Source: Acorus gramineus (Eukaryota; Streptophyta; Magnoliopsida; Acorales; Acoraceae). Taken from it: a DNA stretch of 64,000 nucleotides. Below, piece after piece: positions 5,549 through 60,210 of this stretch. The DNA lies in NCBI GenBank assembly GCA_030737835.1, contig CM060849.1, positions 4,960,001 through 5,024,000 of the forward strand, in the 5' to 3' direction. Within the stretch, counting starts at the first letter, position 1. Each line of letters begins with the position of its first letter. Below the pieces are notes generated by a model that saw only the letters and a list, made by a program, of their open reading frames with translations, did not search any database and was not told the DNA's origin. The position numbers and the translations under genes were made by a program.

Positions 5549-5929
5549 TATATATATAGAGTAATGATACTCTGCGGACATGCGGGCCGTTGTTACGTGC
5601 GGACTCATTTTCGACCGTCCGATCGTGCGCGATCGGACGGTCAAAAAAAAAAAAAAAAAAAACAGTCAGAGTCACTAACAAAAGGACCACCATAACACAC
5701 GACCGTCCGATCAGATTTGATCGGATGGTTCAAAACAAATCAATAAAAACCTTACAATCACTCTCTCTCTCAACTCTCTCTCGACTCGAATCACTCTCTC
5801 TCTCGACTCTCTGCGATCTCTCTGCACTCTCTCTCAAACTCCCTTTGACCACCGACCCCCGGCGACCATCGGCGACCCCCCGCGACCCCGATTCCAGGTT
5901 GAGCTCTCTCTCTCTCTCTCTCTCTTATG

Positions 5930-6085
5930 ATTAGGGTTTTTATCTAGGGTTTTTTATGTTTAGGGTTTTATTATCTAGGGTTTGTGATGATTGGGGTTTT
6001 TTATCTAGGGTTTTTGGTGATTGAGGTTTTTCATCTAGGGTTTTTGATGATTGGGGTTTTTCATCTAGGGTTTTTGATGATTGGG
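5930..6085. repeat. Minisatellite of ~30-bp units containing CTAGGGTTT
   Basis: Units of the form ATCTAGGGTTTTTGATGATT followed by GGGGTTTTTC repeat with small variations. The inverted arm at about 8685-8815 carries the same array with one unit fewer. The unit contains a telomere-like TAGGGTTT core, but the period is too long for telomeric DNA. Confidence 0.7.
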
Positions 6086-6219
6086 GGTTTTTTATTTTAG
6101 GTTTCATTATTGAGTTGGTGGTAGAAATTTTGTAATTTTTTATACCTGTTTGGCACATTTTATTGCTTTTGTAAGGTTGGCTATTTATTTATGGGCTTTT
6201 ATATATATTCTGAACAGGT

Positions 6220-6298
6220 TGATGGAATGGATGAGCTTACTGTGAAGTAGACGTGTAAATTTGCTAAGGAGTATGCTCTGAAGAATGTTTGGCAGGTT
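6220..6298 (+). other. Exon-like block between AG and GT inside the inverted arm
   Basis: The block is preceded by a pyrimidine-containing stretch ending CTGAACAG and followed by GTTGTTC. It reads GMDELTVK, stop, TCKFAKEYALKNVWQ in one frame, with an in-frame TAG. The inverted copy in the right arm (about 8489-8571) is almost the same. It looks like an internal exon captured from a host gene and duplicated when the arms formed. I do not recognise the source gene. Confidence 0.35.
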
Positions 6299-8180
6299 GT
6301 TCTACAAAATATTTTTGTTGTATCTGTGTTGATTGTGTGGTTTGAGTTGATGGCTACTGAAGTGTTGGGGTTGTGGGGATTTTTTTTTTTTTGTACAAGA
6401 TATTTGTGTCATTAAACTTTTGGATATGAAGTGATTGGTGGGCTTGCAAAGCCTGTTTTCAGATTGAAAATTTTCATTAGTGCATGTACTGTTAATTTTG
6501 TTGGTGCATGTATTGTTAATTTTTCCAGTTCATAATCTGGATGCCCCTAGAAGCCCTATAGAGAAGAAGCTTGTTTGGCCTATGTGGTGACTACACTTAA
6601 TACAATGCTTTATGTCTACATTATTTGATGCATCATTTGAATGTGTTTTATTTTTAAAATGCATGAGTTCAACTCAACAGGATTTTAGATCTTGGAAGGC
6701 TCATTGAACTTTTGGTTAGAGCTGACATATCTTGTGTATAATAAAATAGAGAAGGAATAATAAGAAAGTTCAATAGAAATCTTTGACTAGCAGAGATATT
6801 ATGTCCAAGAATTATTAAATTCTTCAAAGCAGGAAACCTTAGATTTCCATGTGCATATCTCTATTGATTTTCATTTCTGTGGTCTTGAATCTTCAAGTGG
6901 TTCTATTGATTTGATTTTCTGTGTAGATTCTCTTGATTGCTGATTTCAAATCTTATACTTTCTTAAGCATCATTCGCATTTGTTGTTCACGATGGTTTTT
7001 TTTTTTTTTTTGGTAAGCACAATGTAATGTTTTTTTGGCTAGCTATTGATATTAGAAGTGCAGATCATTGTTTTCAATAAAACTTTGTAGAGTTGATATG
7101 ATTTTCAATTTTTATGTTTCCCAAATGTCTTGGAAAAAAATTCCATTTGGTTTCAAGTTAAATGTGCTAATGGATTTTAAGTCTTGAACATTGCTGTTAA
7201 TGTTAATGCTGTTAATGCTAGTGGTTTTGAATGGGTGTATCCATATGGTGCTGAAAATGCCAACAAGCATGAGGAATCTATATCAAATCGAGAAGAATCA
7301 CCAACAAGACAAGAGGTGAAGATTTTTCAAAACTGCAGAGCCAACTTATGGAATTGAAGACTGCCCAAGTTTTAATGAAGTCAACGACAGAAGATATAAG
7401 GAGCATGATGAAGCTTGTATTTTTGTTCTTGTTGTAATTTGTGCACTTTGATTTAGAACAAATGTGTAACTTTTGAATGATGGTTCAAATTATGTAATGT
7501 TGTTGGTTCAAATTTTGTAATGTACATTATTTGATCTGCACAATCTCATTGCTTGTCTCAACCAAAGCAAAGCACGATGTGGGACTATGTTACTATGTTA
7601 TACCATCCAGGAATTTGTATAATTTGTTTGTCCTGAACTATGAACCTTCAGTTTTGCAAAAACATGAGCTATTGTTCTGCCATGATCAAATGAAAATGCA
7701 AGCATAAATAAAGAGGAGCTGTGGGAACATGCGTTATTTTTGTGGAAGGCATTAGGTATAGCAGCACACTTTTTTTTTTTTTTTTTTACAAGTGACCATT
7801 TTTTTTTATTACAAGTGACCTATGTAGTTTAAACCTAACAAGAAACCATATGCTTGTTAAATATCCTAGTGCACAAAGAGCAAACAACACAGGCTCTCTA
7901 AGTGAACAACCAATGGAAAATGATTTCTGACCATAAATGCTATTAAGAAGAAATGGGTGGCTGAGCTCTGTTTGTCCAGAGAAGGTCTCGACAATTAAGG
8001 GCATTAAACAAGCCAGTGATTAGAAATGTATTACAAACATTTAGATTGATACCCAAGATGACTCTTTAGCCTTTTTTGAACACATGTTTAATATAGTTGA
8101 CTTCAGGTGGACATTTCAAAGAGGCCAAACAAATTATATATGTAAATCACATGTCTTGCTCAATTCCACAATTAGTTGGT

Positions 8181-9190
8181 TTATTAAGTGTAGTCACCAC
8201 ATAGGCCAAACAAGCTTCTTCTCTATAGGGCTTCTAGGGGCATCCAGATTATGAACTGGAAAAATTAACAATACATGCACCAACAAAATTAACAGTACAT
8301 GCACTAATGAAAATTTTCAATCTGAAAACAGGCTTTGCAAGCCCACCAATCACTTCATATCCAAAAGTTTAATGACACAAATATCTTGTACAAAAAAAAA
8401 AAAATTCCCCACAACCCCAACACTTCAGTAGCCATCAACTCAAACCACACAATCAACACAGATACAACAAAAATATTTTGTAGAACAACCTGCCAAACAT
8501 TCTTCAGAGCATACTCCTTAGCAAATTTACACGTCTACTTCACAGTAAGCTCATCCATTCCATCAACCTGTTCAGAATATATATAAAAGCCCATAAATAA
8601 ATAGCCAACCTTACAAAAGCAATAAAATGTGCCAAACAGGTATAAAAAATTACAAAATTTCTACCACCAACTCAATAATGAAACCTAAAATAAAAAACCC
8701 CCAATCATCAAAAACCCTAGATGAAAAACCCCAATCACCAAAAACCCTAGATAAAAAACCCCAATCATCACAAACCCTAGATAATAAAACCCTAAACATA
8801 AAAAACCCTGGATAAAAACCCTAATCATAGAGAGAGAGAGAGAGCTCAACTTGGAATCGGGGTCGCGGGGGGTCGCCGATGGTCGCCGGGGGTCGGTGGT
8901 CAAAGGGAGTTTGAGAGAGAGTGCAGAGAGATCGCAGAGAGTCGAGAGAGAGAGTGATTCGAGTCGAGAGAGAGTGGAGAGAGAGAGTGATTGTAAGGTT
9001 TTTATTGATTTTTTTTGAACCATCCGATCAAATCTGATCGGACGGTCGTGTGTTATGGTGGTCCTTTTATTAGTGACTCTGACTGTTTTTTTTTTTTTAC
9101 CGTCCGATAGCGCACGATCGGACGGTCGAAAATGAGTCCGCACGTAACAACGGCCCGCATGTCCGCAGAGTATCATTACTCTATATATAT
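8181..9190. repeat. Right inverted arm of the 3.6 kb element
   Basis: This is the inverted copy of 5549-6602, about 44 bp shorter, mainly because it has one unit fewer of the minisatellite. The long open frames seen across it on either strand come from simple-sequence composition and appear in both arms; they are not genes. Confidence 0.8.
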
Positions 9191-32600: not shown

Positions 32601-34291
32601 TTCAAACAAAAGAAAGTTGCTATAGTGATTAGACCACTTTTCCTCACTGGTTACCATCATTTTCACAAGGTATGTCCATCAGCAGGTGAAAATGCAGGGG
32701 ATGAAGGGATTCTATCCGATGATGACCACTTATTTTATTATCACACACTAAACAACATGAAGCTTCACCTTATTTTTAAATCCCCGATACATATCGATCA
32801 AGCTGATTAACACTAACACTTGAAACTAAGATGTAAGCATAAATAATGTGGAATCTGGTCATATGTTGTCTCTAAAGCTGCTGCATCGGTATTAGATACA
32901 TCCAATTGGTCCATTAACATAATGGGTCAATATGCATACTTATATGACGAGCACCTCAATGTTAAGCCACATGTATGTGTTGCTCTTCTTATAGCTAAGT
33001 TTCTGATATCCTAATCTTCCACATTCCAATGCAGATCGGTATTACAAGGAAGAAAACAAAGTAAAGATGGATGACCTTCCAAACAAAAGGTTTATAAGTA
33101 CTTCTTCATTTATCATTTGCGCTTTCATGCACTAAAAATAAGCCTAACCAAACAATCAATGAAGAGCAGAGGATGAGCCTCGACGAACCTGACAAACCCA
33201 TTATTATCGATATCCGCGGCGAGAAACTCCGAAACAGTCATGTCTTTTGCCAACACCAACTTTGCAATCATCCTGTGCCGCTTATCGATCCTCGCCTCCA
33301 TAAGATAAAGAAACGCCCTTGCCACCGCCAACGTTGAGACCAACAACCACAGCGAAGCGAACAACCTCCCCGACAACGACTTGAACGCGCGGTCCCCGTA
33401 CCCGACCGTCGTCACCGACATCACCGACAGATAGAAAGAGTCGAGCCACCCGAGCCGCTCCACGAAGTGCATCAACATCGTCCCCGCCCCGATGCACAGC
33501 ACGACGACTCCAAGCGCGAGCCCCACCTTCATCCGGATCCTCATCCGCCCCTTCTTGACATCCACGATGTAGTCCAGCCTCCGCCGGTTCTTGACGGTGG
33601 AGAGGAGCAGATTCTCCTGAAGATCGAGCACCCGATTGACCATCCCGCTCAAGAGGATGTCGATGAACCCGAACCCGAAGAGCACGAAAGCGATGGAGAA
33701 GACCTTAGCGGAGTCCGTGCGAGGGGTGATGTCGCCGTACCCGATGGTGCACATGGTGACGATGCAGAAGTAGAGGGCGTCGACGATCGGGTGGGTCTCG
33801 ACGCCCGTGAAGTGCGTCCGGTTGAAGGAGTAGATGGCGACGCCGAGGGAGAGGTAGAGGGAGAGGAGGACGACCGCCTGACGGACGATGGACCAGGAGC
33901 CGCCGGAGGGCTTGACGGGGTGGTCGGAGTGGTCGACGTCGTTGATGGTGGACATGGCGGGGGCGGTCCGAGAGCGGTGGAGGTTGGTCTTGGTTCGGCC
34001 AAGACGAGTGGGAATGGCGGGGTTGGGGTCCTCATGAGATGATGATAGTGGGGGATTGTTGATTAGGGTTTCGGAGAGGTCGAGAGAGGTGGGGGAGCCG
34101 AAGAAGAGGCGGCCGAAGAGGGGGGAGGAGGAGGAGGGGATGGGGAGGGTGAACTCATCGTTCTCGGGGAGGGGGGATAGAGAGGGTGGTGGGGTTGAGG
34201 AGGAGGAGGAAGAGGGAATGAGGATTGAGGGGGGGAGTTTTTTTCTAGGGGAATTGCTGAAATAGGTTGGGAGGAGAGGATCACTTTCCAT
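29667..34291 (-). CDS. TPK: Two-pore K+ channel (TPK2/3/5-like), two exons
   Basis: Exon 1 is 34291-33189 and exon 2 is 29805-29667; the GT-AG intron splits a serine codon, restoring GFVSKSEYVIYKLKEMGK. The product is 413 residues, within the usual TPK range. The polar, serine/proline-rich N-terminus carries LHRSRTAPAM (about 105-113); RSRTAP fits a mode-1 14-3-3 site. Two pore modules follow with selectivity filters TIGYGD (182-187) and TVGYGD (295-300), each between hydrophobic helices. A C-terminal EF-hand loop DIDNNGFVSKSE (360-371) keeps its acidic positions; the second, DTGNCGKITLGD, has Gly and Cys where Asp and Asn/Ser are usual. Plant TPKs are dimeric, K+-selective vacuolar (sometimes other endomembrane) channels regulated by Ca2+ and 14-3-3. 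The start at 34291 is preferred over the in-frame ATG at 34396, which would add a lysine/glutamine low-complexity leader. Confidence 0.93.
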
Positions 34292-34504
34292 GTGTAAAAT
34301 TTTACCTTTTTTTTTTGTTGTTGTTGTTGTTGATTGTGAATGATTGGCTGAATTTTTTTTTTTTTTTTTTTTTTGATGATTGTGTGGGGGAAACAAGAGT
34401 CTTGAGCAAAAGTTTCTCTGTCAAAGATCCATGGTTTTCGCATGAGGGGTTGAATGGAAGGGGAAGGGGGAGGGGGTTAGGGATTGAGAGGAGTCTGGGG
34501 TTTT

Positions 34505-49472: not shown

Positions 49473-49912
49473 ATGTCCATGGATATCAATCAGAAGTTGC
49501 GGTCTTCCTTATCCATCCTTGATTCCATCACCATCACCCCTACACCTTACAAATCCTTGGTTGACTTGAAGGATCAGGGTCCCAACAAGCTATACATGTA
49601 TCCTTTTCAGATGTTGAGAAGTTCCCTTTCTTTTCCTCTCCCCCAACTGGTCAAGGATTTCATGTGCCGGTTTAAGCTTTATCTGACACAATGTTCTCCT
49701 AACCCGCTGAGAGTTCTGATGTGCATCGTCACCATCAACCGTTCACTGCGCCTCAACCTCGGAGTCAATGACATCTACCACATGTATGACCTGAGGAAGT
49801 CAGAGCACGCTTTCCTACTTGTGGGCCAGAAAAGACGCGGTCCCCCTCGTGAAGAGCCTTCCATCTTCTGACAGCAGGTGGAGAGAGGAGAACCTCATGT
49901 AGCTGTCCGGTC

Positions 49913-51054
49913 TAGGGGTGCAACTTGGGCGGATTGAACCCGACCCAACCCGGCTCGTGGGCGGGTTCGGGTTGGGGTTTTTTAGCGTCGGGTTCAACCC
50001 GACCCGAACCCGAACCAACCCGAACCCAATTCGGGTCGGGTTCGGGTTGGCGTCTCGGGTTGGCCGGGTTGAACCCGAACCCGTGTATTTTTTATAGAGG
50101 GGTTAAATACTTAAATCCCAACCCTCCATCTTTGATATGGAAAATCATAGCCCTCTATTTCAATTAAACCTAACTCATCCAAATATCCAATACCCCTTTC
50201 ACTCACTGCCGTCAAACACTCAAACCTCTCCAATCCTCACGGCCTCACCGACCGGGCGACCCTCACCGACCGCCCGACCCTCCCCGACTCTCGACGGCCC
50301 TCAGCCCTCGCCGACCGCCCGACGTTCACCGATCCACGCCGCCCGACCCTCCCCGACTCTCGACGGCCCTCAGCCCTCGCCGACCGCCCGACGTTCACCG
50401 ATCCACGCCGCCCGACCCTCCCCGACTCTCGACGGCCCTTAGCCCTCGTCGACGCAAAAAGAGAGGTTCGTTCAATCGTTCACTTTGTTGAGACTTGTTT
50501 GTGTGATATAGACCGACCATGGCTTCTAATGGAAAGATACAGAGAGGAGATCCAAAGCTTAAATGCCATTCAAGTATCCAAAGCTTAAGTTCTTTGATAC
50601 ACAGAAAGTATGACCTCGTTTCTTTTAGAAGATGGTCCTAGATTAGTTTAACAAAAAATTAAAATTTTTAAATATGGCTTATTTTAATTTTAACGGATGA
50701 AAAATTTATAATTTTTTTATTATTATTTACATTTGTGAAAATCAAGATAGAAGAAAAAATAAATGTTATCCTAATCTTTACATAAAACTAAATGTCCTTG
50801 AGGGTTATTTAATTAAGTTTTTATATTTTTTAATTATTCACAAAAATAACCCGAGCCCAACCCGAACCCGAGCCCGAGCCCGGGTTCAACCCGAACCCGA
50901 CCCGAACCCGCGGGTTGAGGTCGGGTTCGGGCTCGGGTTGCACCATTCGGGTTGAGGTCGGGTTCGGGTTCGGGTTCGGGTTGGGCACTGTATATCGTGG
51001 GTTGGGCTTGGACATGTCTTCAACCCGACCCGACCCGCCCGAGTTGCACCCCTA
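49913..51054. mobile_element. hAT-like element, imperfect 8-bp duplication GTCCGGTC/ATCCGGTC
   Basis: The left end is TAGGGGTGCAACTTGGGCGG and the right end, reverse-complemented, is TAGGGGTGCAACTCGGGCGG. The flanks GTCCGGTC (49905-49912) and ATCCGGTC (51055-51062) match at 7 of 8 positions. CCCGAACCCGA-type subterminal repeats fill the first and last ~180 bp. The centre holds a 66-bp tandem repeat and an AT-rich part; there is no transposase. Confidence 0.88.
50272..50445. repeat. 66-bp GC-rich tandem repeat inside the hAT element
   Basis: Units containing CCCGACCCTCCCCGACTCTC and CGACGTTCACCGATCCACG repeat about 2.5 times, nearly identical. The proline/serine-rich frame through it is a product of the repeat. 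It is a GC-rich patch in an AT-rich element. Confidence 0.85.
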
Positions 51055-53530: not shown

Positions 53531-55638
53531 TAAATAATAAGCTCATTTAGGTCCCAACCCAGCGAATTTGTATGGTCCCTCCCAGTTGGGTCAGAGCTTA
53601 CCATCAAATCGCTTTTGGGATTCCGGGAATATCTCCTGTAAGACCCAAGTCTCCAACTTGAAAGCTTCGACGTGAAACCCTCTTGTTGTAGCTTCAAGCG
53701 ATCTGATTCCAATAGTTCACCATTCTGATAGAAGCTGCTTCCCTTCGCTCGTCCCTTAAGTCCAAGTCGGATGCGAGAACCTCCTCGTTTGCTCGGGGCT
53801 CATAGTTCTCGATCCGAAAGGTTGAGATTCCAAGCTCTATAGGAATCACGGCCTCTACCCCAAAGGCTAGGGGGAAAGAAGTTTCCCCTGTATGCCCATA
53901 ATACCAAGGGGAGTTCATCCACCTAGTTACCTTTGGCCGCATCGAGCCGCTTCTTGATCCTGTCCAGAATGGTGCGATTAGTGATCTCTACTTGACCATT
54001 CCCTTGAGAGTAAGGAGGAGAAGAAAAGAGATGTTTTATTCCCAGCTCCTGGCATAATTCCCTCATTGTGGCATTGTTGAACTGTGTTTCATTGTCAGAG
54101 ATTATAGTGTTTGGCACTCCAAACCTACATACAATCTCCTTCCAAAGGAAGCTTCGTACCTCGACATCCTGAATCCTTGCCAGGGCCACAGTTTCTACCC
54201 ATTTGGTGAAGTAGTCAGTGGCTACCAGGACGAACCGCTTATGAGATGTTGCCATGGGCATCAGTCTGATTATATCGAACCCCCATTGAGCAAACGGCCA
54301 GAGACTTTGAAGAGTATTCAAGTCCCCGGCGGGTCGATGGATCAACGAGCCGAATCGCTGACACTTGTCACACTTTCTCACCAGATCAAGCGAATCTTTG
54401 GCCAGGGTTGGTCAGAAATATCCGGCTGTTAATACAGGGCGAGCCAAAAACCTTGAGGCAGAATGGCTCCCGCATATCCTCGAATGCATCTCTTCAAGCA
54501 CTTCTTTGGCTTCCTCGAGGGTGATGCATCGTAGGAGAGGTCCGTTGAAACTCTGCCTGTATAAAATGCATTGATCAGAGATCAAGAACCGAGTGGATCG
54601 ATTCTTAATTTTTCTGGCTTCTTCCTAATCCGGCGGGAGGATATCGTCTTTCAGATAAGACTGAATGGGATCCATCCACGTCGCTTCTCAGGGTTCCGAA
54701 GCTATCGCCATGATATGCTCGAGACGAGCGAGGCTTGGTTCCCCCAAAACTCAACCTGAATTTCGCAAGATGGTTCTCCCTCCAGAGCACTAGCCAAATT
54801 CGCCAAGGCATCAGCTTGAGTAATTTGCTCATGATCAATGGAGTGGATCTACCAATCGCCAATTTGTGCGAGCAGAGTGCGTGCATAGCTCCGATAGGTA
54901 GTCATGCGCTCGTCTTTGGTCTGATACTCTACAATGCTCTGACATACCATGAGCTGAGAGTCGTTGTAGATCACCAACTTCCTCATGGCGAGATCTACAG
55001 TGAACTCCAAACCCGCAATCAAGGCCTCATATTCGGCTTCGTTATGAGAGGCCTTGAACCTAAGTTTGATCGCATGTTCGAACAAAAATCCATCTTAACT
55101 TTGCAAGATCAGCCTTGCTCCTGACCCTCTTCGGTTGAACGCCCCATCAACAAGGAGTGTCACAGAAATTAGTCTGAAGTCAGAGATAGAGCAGACTTGT
55201 TGCTCCGCGGGAGTGAGATCGGCAATGATGTCGGCTACGATTTGCCCTTCGATCACATTCTTGGGTTGATAGTGGATTTCAAAGGCTGACAATTCCACTG
55301 CCCATGTTAACAATCGTCCTGCGACGTCTGCCTTTCGCAGCACCGAGTCGGTGATGATGTGAAACGAATGGGCTTGAAAGTAATGGCACAGCTTCCGGAC
55401 AGAAACAAGCAAGGTAAACGCGAGTTTTTCAATGCGAGAATACCTGGTTTCTGCCCTGTTTAGCACCTTGCTTGCATAATAAATCGCCCTCTTTCCCCAA
55501 TCCATGTCCTTCAGCAGCGCAGAACTGACAGCATGCTCGGAAGCTACGATATAAATCGCCCTCTGTCCCCGGTTTTGACCATCATGTCGTCAATGTAGAC
55601 CTCCACGATCTTGCTGATCTGCTGTTGGAAGTGTAGAT
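53531..55638 (-). pseudogene. Ty3/gypsy pol remnant (RT end, RNase H, second RNase H, integrase)
   Basis: Read on the minus strand from 55638: VEVYIDDMMVK (reverse transcriptase active-site motif), then a jump to AIYYASKVLNRAETRYSRIE and HSFHIITDS (gypsy RNase H region). A second RNase H-like part follows (FKASHNEAEYEALIAGLEFT, IYNDSQLM), as in Tat-lineage elements. The integrase has its zinc-finger end CDKCQRFG and core FDIIRLMPMATSHKRFVLVA, TDYFTKWVE, SDNETQF and GNGQVEITNR. The last part (53942-53531) has NSPWYYGHTGETSFPLAFGV and a frameshifted C-terminal tail. About 150 residues between YIDD and RNase H are missing, and the 5' part is cut at 55639 by an LTR-like sequence. Confidence 0.85.
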
Positions 55639-57071
55639 ACCCCAATTTTGACCGTCCAAAGAGACAAAAATAATTCAAGTAATATTGGAAACAACCACAT
55701 TTGAACATCTAAAAGAAAACTCCTTCAAAAACCAAACCCGGAAAACCTAAGTCCAACACTTAGAAAAATCTAAGAGCCTAGACAGGGGTAGCTACTTACA
55801 GGTAGCCGCCCAATACCAGGCGGTTAGTTGGAACTAGCCACCCCCTGACCGACTCCAAACCGCCTTCCTGGATGGGACATAAAGCAAGCATGATTGCGGC
55901 GGATTGTCCATTCTAGCGGCTTCATCTTAGCCAGTTCATCCTTAGTAACCAACCCAAGCCACCGCTTGTCAGAGATGGGACGTTTGACAGGTTATGATGG
56001 GGGCGGCTACCTGAGAGTAGCCGCCCCTCACTGGGCGGCTAAACACAACTAGCCGCCCCTCACCTAGACATTGTCAGAGAACAAAGATCTAATGGGAGGT
56101 CAAATCAAGCATTTTATTACCCATTTTGATCTATTGTCTAGTGAGCACTCCCCTACACCTTTTTACTATAAATAGGGGGGTCTCTAAGCATTTATTCACA
56201 ATCAAAACCCACAACAACTCACATTCCCAATCATCAATACATACAAGCCTATACCCCCACACTACCATTTCAAAAACCCTTGAGAGAGAAAGAGAGAGAG
56301 AAACCCATTTCCTACACCAAATCACTCTCCAAATCTACTCTCCAAAACCCAGGTTAAACCTAGCTTAACATTTTCCAAACACCCAAATCAAACCCTACCC
56401 AGGTTCTGCCCAAATTGAACTAGACACCAGGCGGCTACCCACAACTAGCCGCCCCCCACCAGGCGGCTAAATCAGACTAGCCGACCCTTCCCTAGCCCAC
56501 CTTAGTCTTAATTCTCCTTTAGTCAGGTTCCCGAAGCAGAAGAGGACCCCTGTCTTCACCTTGTATATGGCATATCCGTGTCTCAGAGCGGAGACCCCCA
56601 CAAACTCTCTCACGAAGGCGATCAAATCCACCCTCAACTTTTTCTGCTTTTTTAGAAAAGCAGGTGGCGATCACAACAACCCCTGAATCGTCCTGAGGAC
56701 CCGTCGGCCGCCTCAGCCAGGAACGAACAACCAACCCACCACCACTTCCGAGAGACGATCCAATCGAGCCTGCCAATGCACAGCTCTCCGGATCCGAGCC
56801 TCCGAAGAACCCCCACACACGCACAACCACTGGAGGACCAGGAGGAGGAAGAGAGGGAGGAAGGCTTCCTGGAGCACGCCTTTCTTTCTTTTCCCGAAAT
56901 CCAATACTGACAGCCTGGCGATCACGGTAGGACCTCCCTCGTGAAAGACAACAAAAGGTAATCCTCTTCTGCTTCCTCACAATAACCTGACTAGAATGCC
57001 ATCACCCCTCTAGGAAAGCTAAGATTCCCCCACCCCTCAAGTCTGACCCTCCTCTACTTTGCATTACAACA
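55639..57071 (+). mobile_element. LTR-like sequence inserted into the gypsy pol
   Basis: It begins TGTAGATACCCCAATTTTGA, which abuts the pol remnant directly. It has TATAAATAGG at 56167 followed by a transcript-leader-like stretch, and repeated GGCGGCTA / TAGCCGCC motifs. These and the TATA context parallel the LTR-like block at 40684. The minus-strand frame at 56519-56980 is GC-rich and without a domain. The 3' terminus is not resolved; it runs into the hairpin at 57072. Confidence 0.55.
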
Positions 57072-57408
57072 TCCTTTACTGCTTTAAGCCGCACACAGCT
57101 GCACACCCCTTTACTGCTTTAAGCGGCACACAACTATGCACCCCCTTTTATTGCTTTAAGCCGCACACAGCTGCGCACCCCTTTACCGCTTTATTTACTG
57201 CTTTGATCTGCATTCATTCACACCTAGGCTTTTCCATATGGATGAATATGGAAAAGCCTAGGTGTAGATGAATGCAGATCAAAGCAATAAATAAAGCGAT
57301 AAAGGGGTGCGCAGCTGTGTGCGACTTAAAGCAGTAAAGGGGTGTGCAAGTGTGTGCGGCTTAAAGCAATAAAAGGGGTGCGCAACTGTGTGCGGCTTAA
57401 AGCAGTAA
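57072..57408. repeat. Long near-perfect hairpin with internal tandem units
   Basis: The left arm (about 57072-57232) and right arm (about 57245-57408) are inverted copies with only scattered mismatches, meeting at CCTAGGCTTTTCCATAT against ATATGGAAAAGCCTAGG with a loop of about 7 bases. Each arm has three to four ~36-bp units of the form TTTACTGCTTTAAGCCGCAC followed by ACAGCTGCGCACCCC. Transcription through it would give a ~165-bp-arm RNA hairpin. CTGCTTTA motifs also occur in the LTR-like sequence at 41826, so it probably derives from an LTR. Confidence 0.9.
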
Positions 57409-57429
57409 CCATCCGGATCCGAATCTAAA

Positions 57430-58200
57430 ATGTCATCTGAGAAAAAAAGGGGTGAAGGTCAAAGGTTCTTTGTTCATCATCATCACCACTTGTGGTTCTC
57501 TGTCCTCATCCAACATCATCAGCAAAACAAAGATTCATTGTGGCACTGGACAGAATTCGGGTTTCTTGAGCCAGGGCTACATTTATGTAGGTGATCGTGT
57601 TGTTAAGGATTAGGGTTTTTTTTATTGAAGCCACTAGACATCCACATCTCTCCTCGTGCCTCTGCGAGCCTCCACGTGCCTCTCCTCACACTCTCTACAC
57701 CCTTCGCGAGAGTCATCCTTGTTGTCCGCGAGTCCTTTGCGAGAGCATATCTTCACTCCTCTCGTCCTGCACTAATAGCTTCATGTTTTTTCTTCTTCTC
57801 CTTTAACGCTCCCCTCGTCATGCCATGAGCGTCGCATTTCTTCTTCTTCTTCTCTGTCCGCGCGCCTCCCATCGTGTGTCGTTCGTATTGTCGTTCGTCA
57901 TCGCACCATCGTTGTTCTTCTCTTCCTTGGATCTCCTTTCTTTGAGATCCACATTCGTCACGTCGTCATCTTCCCGTGTCGTCATCTCCGTCCTCATCGT
58001 CGTTCGCGTCGCATTTCTTCTCCTTCTCCGTCTTCATTATGCTTCGCCATCAGCGTTGTCAGTGTTGCAGAAAGGCCCCTTTACACTTCGCCATTAACAT
58101 TTGCAGTGTTACAGAAAGGCATCTTGACAAATCTGATCTATTAGACAACCAATTCCAACAAACTCAAGAAGAGCGAGAGCGACTTCAACAGACTCAAAGA
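57430..58200. other. CT-rich sequence, probably retrotransposon leader, no gene
   Basis: Short plus-strand frames (57591-57828, 57825-58221) are Leu/Ser/Phe-rich with no domain; composition explains them. The end, with CTTGACAAATCTGATCTATT and AGAGCGAGAGCGACTTCAAC, could encode a short Gln/Arg-rich helix, but nothing supports a gene. The style resembles the leader region after the Copia-like LTR at 43893. Confidence 0.4.
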
Positions 58201-58204
58201 GTAA

Positions 58205-58655
58205 GCCCCTGTTTAGAATAAGAATAAGCCCATAGATAACCTGGTATTGACTGGAATAGGGGTTTTAACCTGTTTGGACGCCTGGTATAATCTGGGATAT
58301 CTTATGCAGAATAAACATGTATAAAGTAATATATGGATTCCAACCAACCCCTAGAATTAAAGTTATCCTAGATTATTCTACCCAAAGAATATGTGAATCC
58401 ACTGTCAAATCAACTGCCATCTTCTCTTATAAATCACCCATCAAATCAACTATCATTATTTTTTCACTTTTTATAAATCTTTATCCATACTTTATTTACA
58501 TTTTACCCAAACAACAAAAATTTATTCTTACATTTACGAACGAGAATAATTCAAAACACAAACAAACACAAAATCACTTTATCCTTGTTTATACTCACTT
58601 ATGCGAGAATAAATGTATACCCAATAATAAATTCTATTCCCATTCCAAACGGGGC
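58205..58655. mobile_element. Tourist-like MITE (PIF/Harbinger), target duplication TAA
   Basis: TAA occurs at 58202-58204 and 58656-58658. The left end is GCCCCTGTTTAGAATAAGAA and the right end, reverse-complemented, is GCCCCGTTTGGAATGGGAAT. At 451 bp and without coding capacity it fits Tourist MITEs. The larger element at 35974 has similar ends. Confidence 0.85.
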
Positions 58656-58805
58656 TAAGAGCGACTCAAGAAGAGTGGTATCAAAGTGATGAAATCCAAA
58701 AGACAGACGGCGACTATTAATTCACACAATTCTTGGAAGTTCTTCGATGATTTGAGGTGTTTGTTATTTTTAGTGCTAACTCTTAGGGTTGAGTTTTGAA
58801 TTGGG

Positions 58806-58954
58806 CGTTAAAGAGTTATTATTATGACAAATTGTGTCATTATTATAACATATTGAGTCATTATTGTTTTTCTATTATAACCTTTGTGTATCTATAAATA
58901 GGGTTTTTAATTCATCTCATACAATAAAAAGAATTATCTTCCTTCGTTTTAACA
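58806..58954 (+). mobile_element. Second copy of the short Copia-like LTR
   Basis: GTTAAAGAGTTATTATTATG, CATTATTATAACATATTGAG, TATCTATAAATAGGG and TCTTCCTTCGTTTTAACA line up in order with 43699-43879. The following sequence does not keep a clear primer-binding site. It is probably a solo or truncated LTR. Confidence 0.65.
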
Positions 58955-60210
58955 AGGTTGATGATTTTCATAGCCCCATCAATTCGCATTCCTTTCCCTT
59001 GTTTATAGCGTCAAATCGACTTGATATTATCACGGGCGTTATGCGTAACGGCGATCAGACCTTGACAAGGACAAGTTCACATTTGAATTTAAAGGAGACA
59101 CATTAATACAACATTTATCTTAGCACCTATCAAAAAACGGGTTTGGATCATCTACTTGTTTTTTCCTGCTTGTATCTTATTTGACTTTTATTGTGAAGTT
59201 ACCACATCATCACAATTAAAATCAAACGGTTATAAATATATCAAATCATAAATGAATAAATGGATCCATTTTATTTGATGAATTTATGACCGTTTGATTG
59301 ATCAAAACACAAAACAATTACAGAAAAACAAGTAGAGAATCCAAACCTCAAAAAAACCATTTATTTTAGCAAAAGTGAATAAAGTCAGAATAATAAATTA
59401 TTCATTCTTTAAAACTGAAACAATTTATCTTTAAAATCTTTTCCCCTGCCAAATCAGACTTTGTGGAATTATAGTTTATCTTTTGTGCCCATTTAGCAAG
59501 AATTTACTCGTAATACATAAAGGTGGCCCCGAATTCTATCTGCTGAATTGGATTCAAGATATTCAATAAACTTCTTGGAAATTTTTGGGAGTTGATATCA
59601 ATCCATGTCTATTTGCCAAACTTGAGTGAAAAATATACCCGATATCAATAGATATTTTTTCGGTTGCTGCTTAAACAAATTTAGGCTCCCTTTGCCTTCA
59701 CGTCCTGGCACCGGCGTTCCAAAGCCATGAGGAGCGTTTGGGGGGGGAGAAATCAATGTTTTGGGGGAGTTGGAGGAACTCAAGAAAACCAACCAAAATC
59801 AGTAAACGACAATGTAATTTAATGTAATTGACGCAACGTTGAAATGGGTGTTTGTTTGCATGTTTGCGTTCATGGTGCTACGCTGACTCCACCACTCCTC
59901 TAACAGAGAAGCAAACGGATCCTTAATGGAAATGTTACATGGAATCTCCCCCCACCAATGTGTATACATTAGTAAGAAAATTTCACATTTTTTTTATTAA
60001 TGGCTCCATTCAATTAGTAATTAATGTAAATACACTGTTTATAAAAACAACTTAACCTGGCTACCGAAAGGGCCTTTGAGTAATATGCCATGGGTTCTCC
60101 ATTATTAATATTCTGTCGACTTCAAAAATCTAAAGACATGTCTTCCTTTCCATAATCAAACTCATGCAAATTGACTATTAACTAAAGATGGCAATGTCAC
60201 TTATAAAGAT

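Follow-up and report, generated by a model that had tools for sequence, protein, structure and literature searches.

The inverted repeat at positions 57075-57408 of the window (the whole 64,000-nucleotide stretch of Acorus gramineus DNA that was analysed) is real and far beyond chance, and it looks like a one-off rearrangement of an LTR retroelement rather than a dedicated structure. In the reading that we favour, and hold to be reasonably probable, a Ty3-like element was rearranged in a single event, such that its 5' end, an inverted fragment of its tandem array and unrelated repeat DNA now lie side by side.

The inverted repeat and its predicted fold

A repeat search of the window found an inner inverted repeat (57137-57239 / 57246-57348, 92% complementary and 6 nt apart), and outer repeat pairs extend the hairpin to 57075 and 57408. 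The left arm (57075/57076-57239, forward strand) is an array of 35-bp units native to the leader of the element described below, and it ends in CCTAGGCTTTTCCATAT; the right arm (57246-57408, reverse strand) is an inverted second array, in which the variant CATCTACACC is present. The two are separated by the loop GGATGA (57240-57245, forward strand). The tip is made of the inverted hexamers CCATAT / ATATGG, and CATCC is present at both outer ends of the hairpin (57070-57074 and 57410-57414). Folding of 57040-57440 as RNA gave -268.4 kcal/mol, against a mean of -107.8 (sd 5.59) for shuffled sequences (z -28.7; 0/100 as stable), with 152 pairs in 57073-57408, three of them G-U; the longest helix without interruption measures 24 bp.

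The inverted repeat proposed in the sequence-only reading is thus confirmed by the fold, with arms at 57076-57239 and 57246-57408, but several of its details had to be adjusted. The arms are inverted copies of each other, as had been claimed, yet calling them near-perfect was a little generous, since 9.3% of the aligned sites differ between left and right. The loop, put at about 7 bases, measures 6 nt, and the tandem units, which do occur in both arms, have a period of 35 instead of ~36 bp according to Tandem Repeats Finder (3.4 and 3.3 copies in the two arms). As the whole 64-kb window gave 0 Rfam matches at the gathering score, and so no known MIR family, we ruled out that the hairpin belongs to a known microRNA family.

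The window also contains a second, larger inverted repeat (5558-6602 / 8182-9182) with arms of ~1 kb, a spacer of 1.58 kb and ends AGAGTAATGATACTCTGCGGAC, whose blocks are 98-100% complementary (95% for the full-length, gapped arm). Ends related to AGAGTAATGATACTCTGCGGAC recur elsewhere at several places as opposite-strand pairs, separated by ~0.7-7 kb, and this repeat therefore looks like one member of a family of DNA transposons whose terminal inverted repeats are long. At 49900-51050, both strands are dense in CCCGAA / TTCGGG repeats, with tandem arrays at 50848-50982; this is possibly another inverted arrangement. An open frame of 431 codons at 33125-34420 (reverse strand) has two Ion_trans_2 stretches (PF07885) and presumably resembles a two-pore potassium channel.

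Family copies carry one arm followed by a gag-like frame

We searched the 398.6-Mb genome with the hairpin as query and scored the best 40 of 417 candidates. At the 39 scored places outside the window, both arms match the same place on opposite strands, and therefore each of these places holds one arm only. Together with 20 copies chosen from a junction query, for which the best 40 of 183 candidates were scored, this gave 59 copies for examination. When these were read by eye, the arm was followed in 59/59 by TTCACAC-(A/C)ATGGAGGCC or a close variant, the junction form directly after the arm in family copies being TTCACAC-(A/C)ATGGA. The ATG of the gag-like start is intact in 58 of the 59, and a regular expression caught 57/59 of the junctions. 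A pattern search of the genome for the exact normal junction CCTAGGCTTTTCCATATTCACACNATGGA gave 117 occurrences (65 + 52). Since the gag-like start follows the arm in every copy examined, the arm, judging from these junctions, closes the leader on its 3' side, immediately before the gag-like frame, and is not part of the LTR. We accordingly ruled out an array inside the LTR; other DNA, as expected after a 3' or solo LTR, followed the arm in none of the copies. The earlier claim that the hairpin resembles an LTR family thus holds in that it matches a multi-copy family, but what it matches is the leader array just 5' of the gag-like frame.

Array length differs among the copies, many of which carry extra units upstream. 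Below the cut-offs, the gag-like frame of one copy (L010) has a weak Pfam match to Retrotrans_gag (E 0.01), and a frame in L049 matches SH3_Tf2-1 (E 3.1e-5). We also note, in L048 (5122-5874, reverse strand) and ~7 kb downstream of the gag-like frame of L010, an open frame that matches the plant mobile domain (PF10536, E 2.3e-10), a possible case of gene capture in an LTR element. In L037 and L050, long direct repeats spaced ~2-3 kb from one another lie 3' of the gag-like start in one family copy.

The window retains the 5' end of a truncated element

Homology with the copies identifies 55632-57074 (forward strand) as the 5' end of the multi-copy element, comprising the LTR start TGTAGATACCCC, a TATA box and the leader. 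Homology begins exactly at 55632 in 19 of the 39 fetched copies; counting all starts within 55627-55636 gives 27 copies, and in the remaining 12 it begins further right. It runs to the arm end at 57239. The sequence-only reading had placed the hairpin 3' of an LTR-like sequence bearing a TATA box, and the box is indeed there (CTATAAATAGG, 56166-56176, forward strand). Its core word TATAAATAG is found in the fetched stretch of 45/59 copies, at a median of 1079 nt upstream of the gag-junction match in copies where both were found, and at least eight of the 14 copies that do not have the word have no homology spanning the TATA position. The family thus combines an LTR starting with TG, a promoter, a leader and a gag-like start, the last as read in the other copies. 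However, the window locus does not hold a complete element with two LTRs, and the gag-like frame is absent after 57239. On these comparisons, the window element is a truncated fragment of a Ty3-like LTR retroelement. The 10-kb stretches 3' of three copies (L048, L049 and L050) gave no match to 55600-57239.

The flanks belong to other repeats

On the left, the remains of the pol region of another element lie on the reverse strand at 53923-55589, where Pfam detects an integrase core (rve, 53923-54411) and a reverse transcriptase RNase H (RT_RNaseH, 55095-55589); they end abruptly, short of the LTR start at 55632. On the right, CCATAT is followed by GGATGA and then by the inverted array, which ends at the start of an array unit (57408). 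The neighbouring DNA at 57409-58200 is other dispersed repeat DNA, recognized by partial matches elsewhere. When 57409-59000 was compared with the 59 copies, the one match was an 83-base piece (58516-58595) in the flank of L041, and by this comparison the DNA right of 57408 is not the family's own continuation. A MITE-like insertion with the ends AGCCCCTGTTTAGAAT / ATTCCAAACGGGGCT and TAAG-like flanks splits a repeat at 58204-58656.

We did not find an empty or pre-rearrangement site; L075 and L076 each contain pieces resembling the right flank, but these border on other repeats. L075 gave no family match. In L076, a leader/LTR-like fragment of ~160 bases (1-160), which matches in 56/59 copies at up to 85%, lies ~0.85 kb from 61 bases (1014-1074) resembling the right flank of the window. 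This fragment stops near 160, possibly at an LTR end, and its proximity to the right-flank piece may be due to chance or may be a trace of shared history.

The head-to-head arrangement is found at one place

The exact patterns CCTAGGCTTTTCCATAT-N0-30-TATGGAAAAGCCTAGG and CACCTAGGCTTT-N6-36-AAAGCCTAGGTG, which hairpins with mutated tips could escape, each occur at a single place in the 398.6 Mb, namely the window. The genome check for other inverted copies that the sequence-only reading called for thus revealed none beyond the window by these two patterns, and none of the 59 fetched copies (0/59) has the arm tips in both orientations. The junction query (76 bases) aligned across the loop at five other places (L010, L039, L056, L057 and L065), over partial length and at 88-91%. 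All five are single-arm copies when read; in reverse, the beginning of their gag-like frame is similar to the hairpin loop.

Origin of the second array

The arms are about as different from each other as two members of the family. The median distance between copies is 6.7% in the first set (39 copies, 741 pairs), where 87% of the pairs are closer than the arms, and 7.5% in a set of 52 rows (1326 pairs; 7/59 copies whose match stopped short of the array start are omitted), where 71% are closer. The arms are therefore not unusually conserved, their pairing being preserved no further than likeness within the family would give, and this comparison lends no support to selection on that pairing.

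The variants that distinguish the arms point to two sources. The right-arm variant CATCTACACC is carried by five of the 39 first copies and by 11 of the 13 scored in the second set, a share to be read with the fact that similarity to the junction and the right arm decided which copies entered this set; the left-arm state CATTCACACC is carried by 29/39 of the first copies. The arms share no rare variant, and their single common departure from the majority letter is a common two-way polymorphism. Because the right arm has a family variant that the left arm is without, a different family copy is the probable source of the second array, and we put an origin from two copies ahead of one from a single copy. 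The full combination of variants in the right arm occurs in none of the fetched copies in the alignments. The five CATCTACACC copies do not fall into a single group on an LTR+leader tree, which is a rough one with three long-branched rows and 21/37 inner branches drawn open; the marker may accordingly move between backgrounds.

The rival that survives best, though we regard it as rather improbable, is an inverted duplication in place: at about the time of insertion, a template switch at the tip made an inverted copy of the array that the element already had, and the arms have diverged since. The AU test did not reject the arms as sisters (p 0.32 with 41 rows and p 0.40 with 54 rows), the end branch of the window in the LTR+leader tree (0.055) allows ~11% between the arms, near the observed 9.3%, and the inverted hexamers lie at the tip, all in agreement with this scenario. 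However, such a duplication does not readily account for a two-base family variant in only one arm and the sharing of no rare variant, nor for a right arm that stops at the array start and gives way to DNA unrelated to the family leader.

In the rearrangement that we favour, the window retains the 5' end of the element, with LTR, TATA box and a leader bearing the 35-bp array, and an inverted array fragment of ~163 bp was joined where the gag-like frame should begin. The fragment most likely derives from another family member and may have been copied or captured as filler in break repair; alternatively, a deletion between inverted neighbours could have produced the same junction. Unrelated repeat DNA would then have been joined beyond the inverted array. 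Should the LTR promoter fire at any time, its RNA would be expected to form a 152-bp hairpin, which Dicer-like enzymes could cut into siRNAs matching the family leaders.

Potential for double-stranded RNA and silencing

In plants, Dicer-like enzymes cut the hairpins of inverted repeats into siRNAs. The earlier suggestion that the locus would form long dsRNA if transcribed is mechanically sound, given the pairing and the upstream TATA box, and the hairpin shows the long, near-perfect stem-loop characteristic of endogenous inverted-repeat siRNA loci. Transcription driven by the LTR would yield dsRNA matching the family leader. Two AATAAA motifs are read on the forward strand in the right arm, at 57286 and 57368, and might terminate transcripts before the hairpin is complete. 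Among the 313 distinct 21-mers of the hairpin, 185 have an exact match in one or more of the 59 other copies, and all 59 are matched, although this sharing is partly expected because the left arm is part of a family leader. A match in trans to a multi-copy family, as in the Mu killer system of maize, is thus present.

Silencing of the Mu killer type is possible. The stronger proposition, that the locus is a functional silencer whose LTR-driven hairpin RNA is diced into siRNAs acting in trans on the leader-bearing family, seems to us unlikely. It gains from the TATA box, from the near-perfect duplex of 152 bp, from exact 21-mers shared with each of the 59 copies examined and from the use of long inverted repeats as DCL2, DCL3 and DCL4 substrates in plants (PMC4687873). 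Against it stand the restriction to one locus by the exact head-to-head patterns, an arm divergence no lower than that between family copies, and the right-arm motifs that might end transcripts early. Slightly more doubtful still is the version in which a hairpin of two members' leader arrays, driven by the LTR, fed 21-24 nt siRNAs and so helped to shut the family down, with the untranslated leader of >100 gag-bearing copies as the proposed target. If expressed, the locus would offer a compact natural test of whether inverted rearrangement of an LTR element leads to family-wide silencing, as proposed for Mu killer, and the arm-specific variants would set siRNAs of the hairpin apart from those of other copies. 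If silent, it would be a clear example of how the decay of nested retroelements gives rise to hairpin-capable sequence that is flagged by sequence scans.

Fold-back reads can produce palindromes with a short loop, and an artefact of this kind, in reads or assembly, would mimic the geometry seen here; it is very unlikely, because near-identical arms would be expected whereas these differ as much as two family members and carry arm-specific variants, one of which is known from other copies. Foldback elements combine a short centre with long inverted ends in which tandem units occur, an anatomy that the hairpin resembles down to CATCC at both outer ends, but a foldback or MITE-type DNA transposon with tandem units in its terminal repeats is hardly credible, as the left flank including CATCC is native leader in hairpin-less copies and the multiple copies with both inverted ends that define such a family were not found, neither among the 59 copies nor by the exact-tip patterns.

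Comparison with known systems

Our literature search found no report that joins tandem repeats of a retrotransposon leader, an inverted repeat and hairpin siRNAs, which is weak evidence on what has been published. A variable tandem array in a non-coding part is shared with the plant Ty3/gypsy element Ogre, where it lies in the 3' UTR (PMC9659126), whereas the array of the present family occupies the end of the 5' leader, with the gag-like frame immediately after it. Like IR71 and IR2039 of Arabidopsis (PMC4687873), the locus has a long stem-loop that could give dsRNA without an RNA-dependent polymerase; precursor RNAs of both Arabidopsis loci have been detected and IR71 gives siRNAs, whereas RNA from the window locus is hypothetical. 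The closest parallel is Mu killer (Muk) of maize, in which, according to PMC3440606, a transposon fragment was likewise turned into an inverted duplication, proposed to make a hairpin RNA against its own family. The same paper describes plants with effective silencing as expressing two short antisense transcripts that are unable to form large hairpins. Muk differs in that it arose by rearrangement of a DNA transposon, the duplicated part being ~1.3 kb of mudrA, and in that silencing has been demonstrated (PMC3440606), while the present case concerns 163 bp of leader array from an LTR element. The window locus is a rearranged, decayed retroelement, single by the exact-tip patterns, whose transcripts could form dsRNA.
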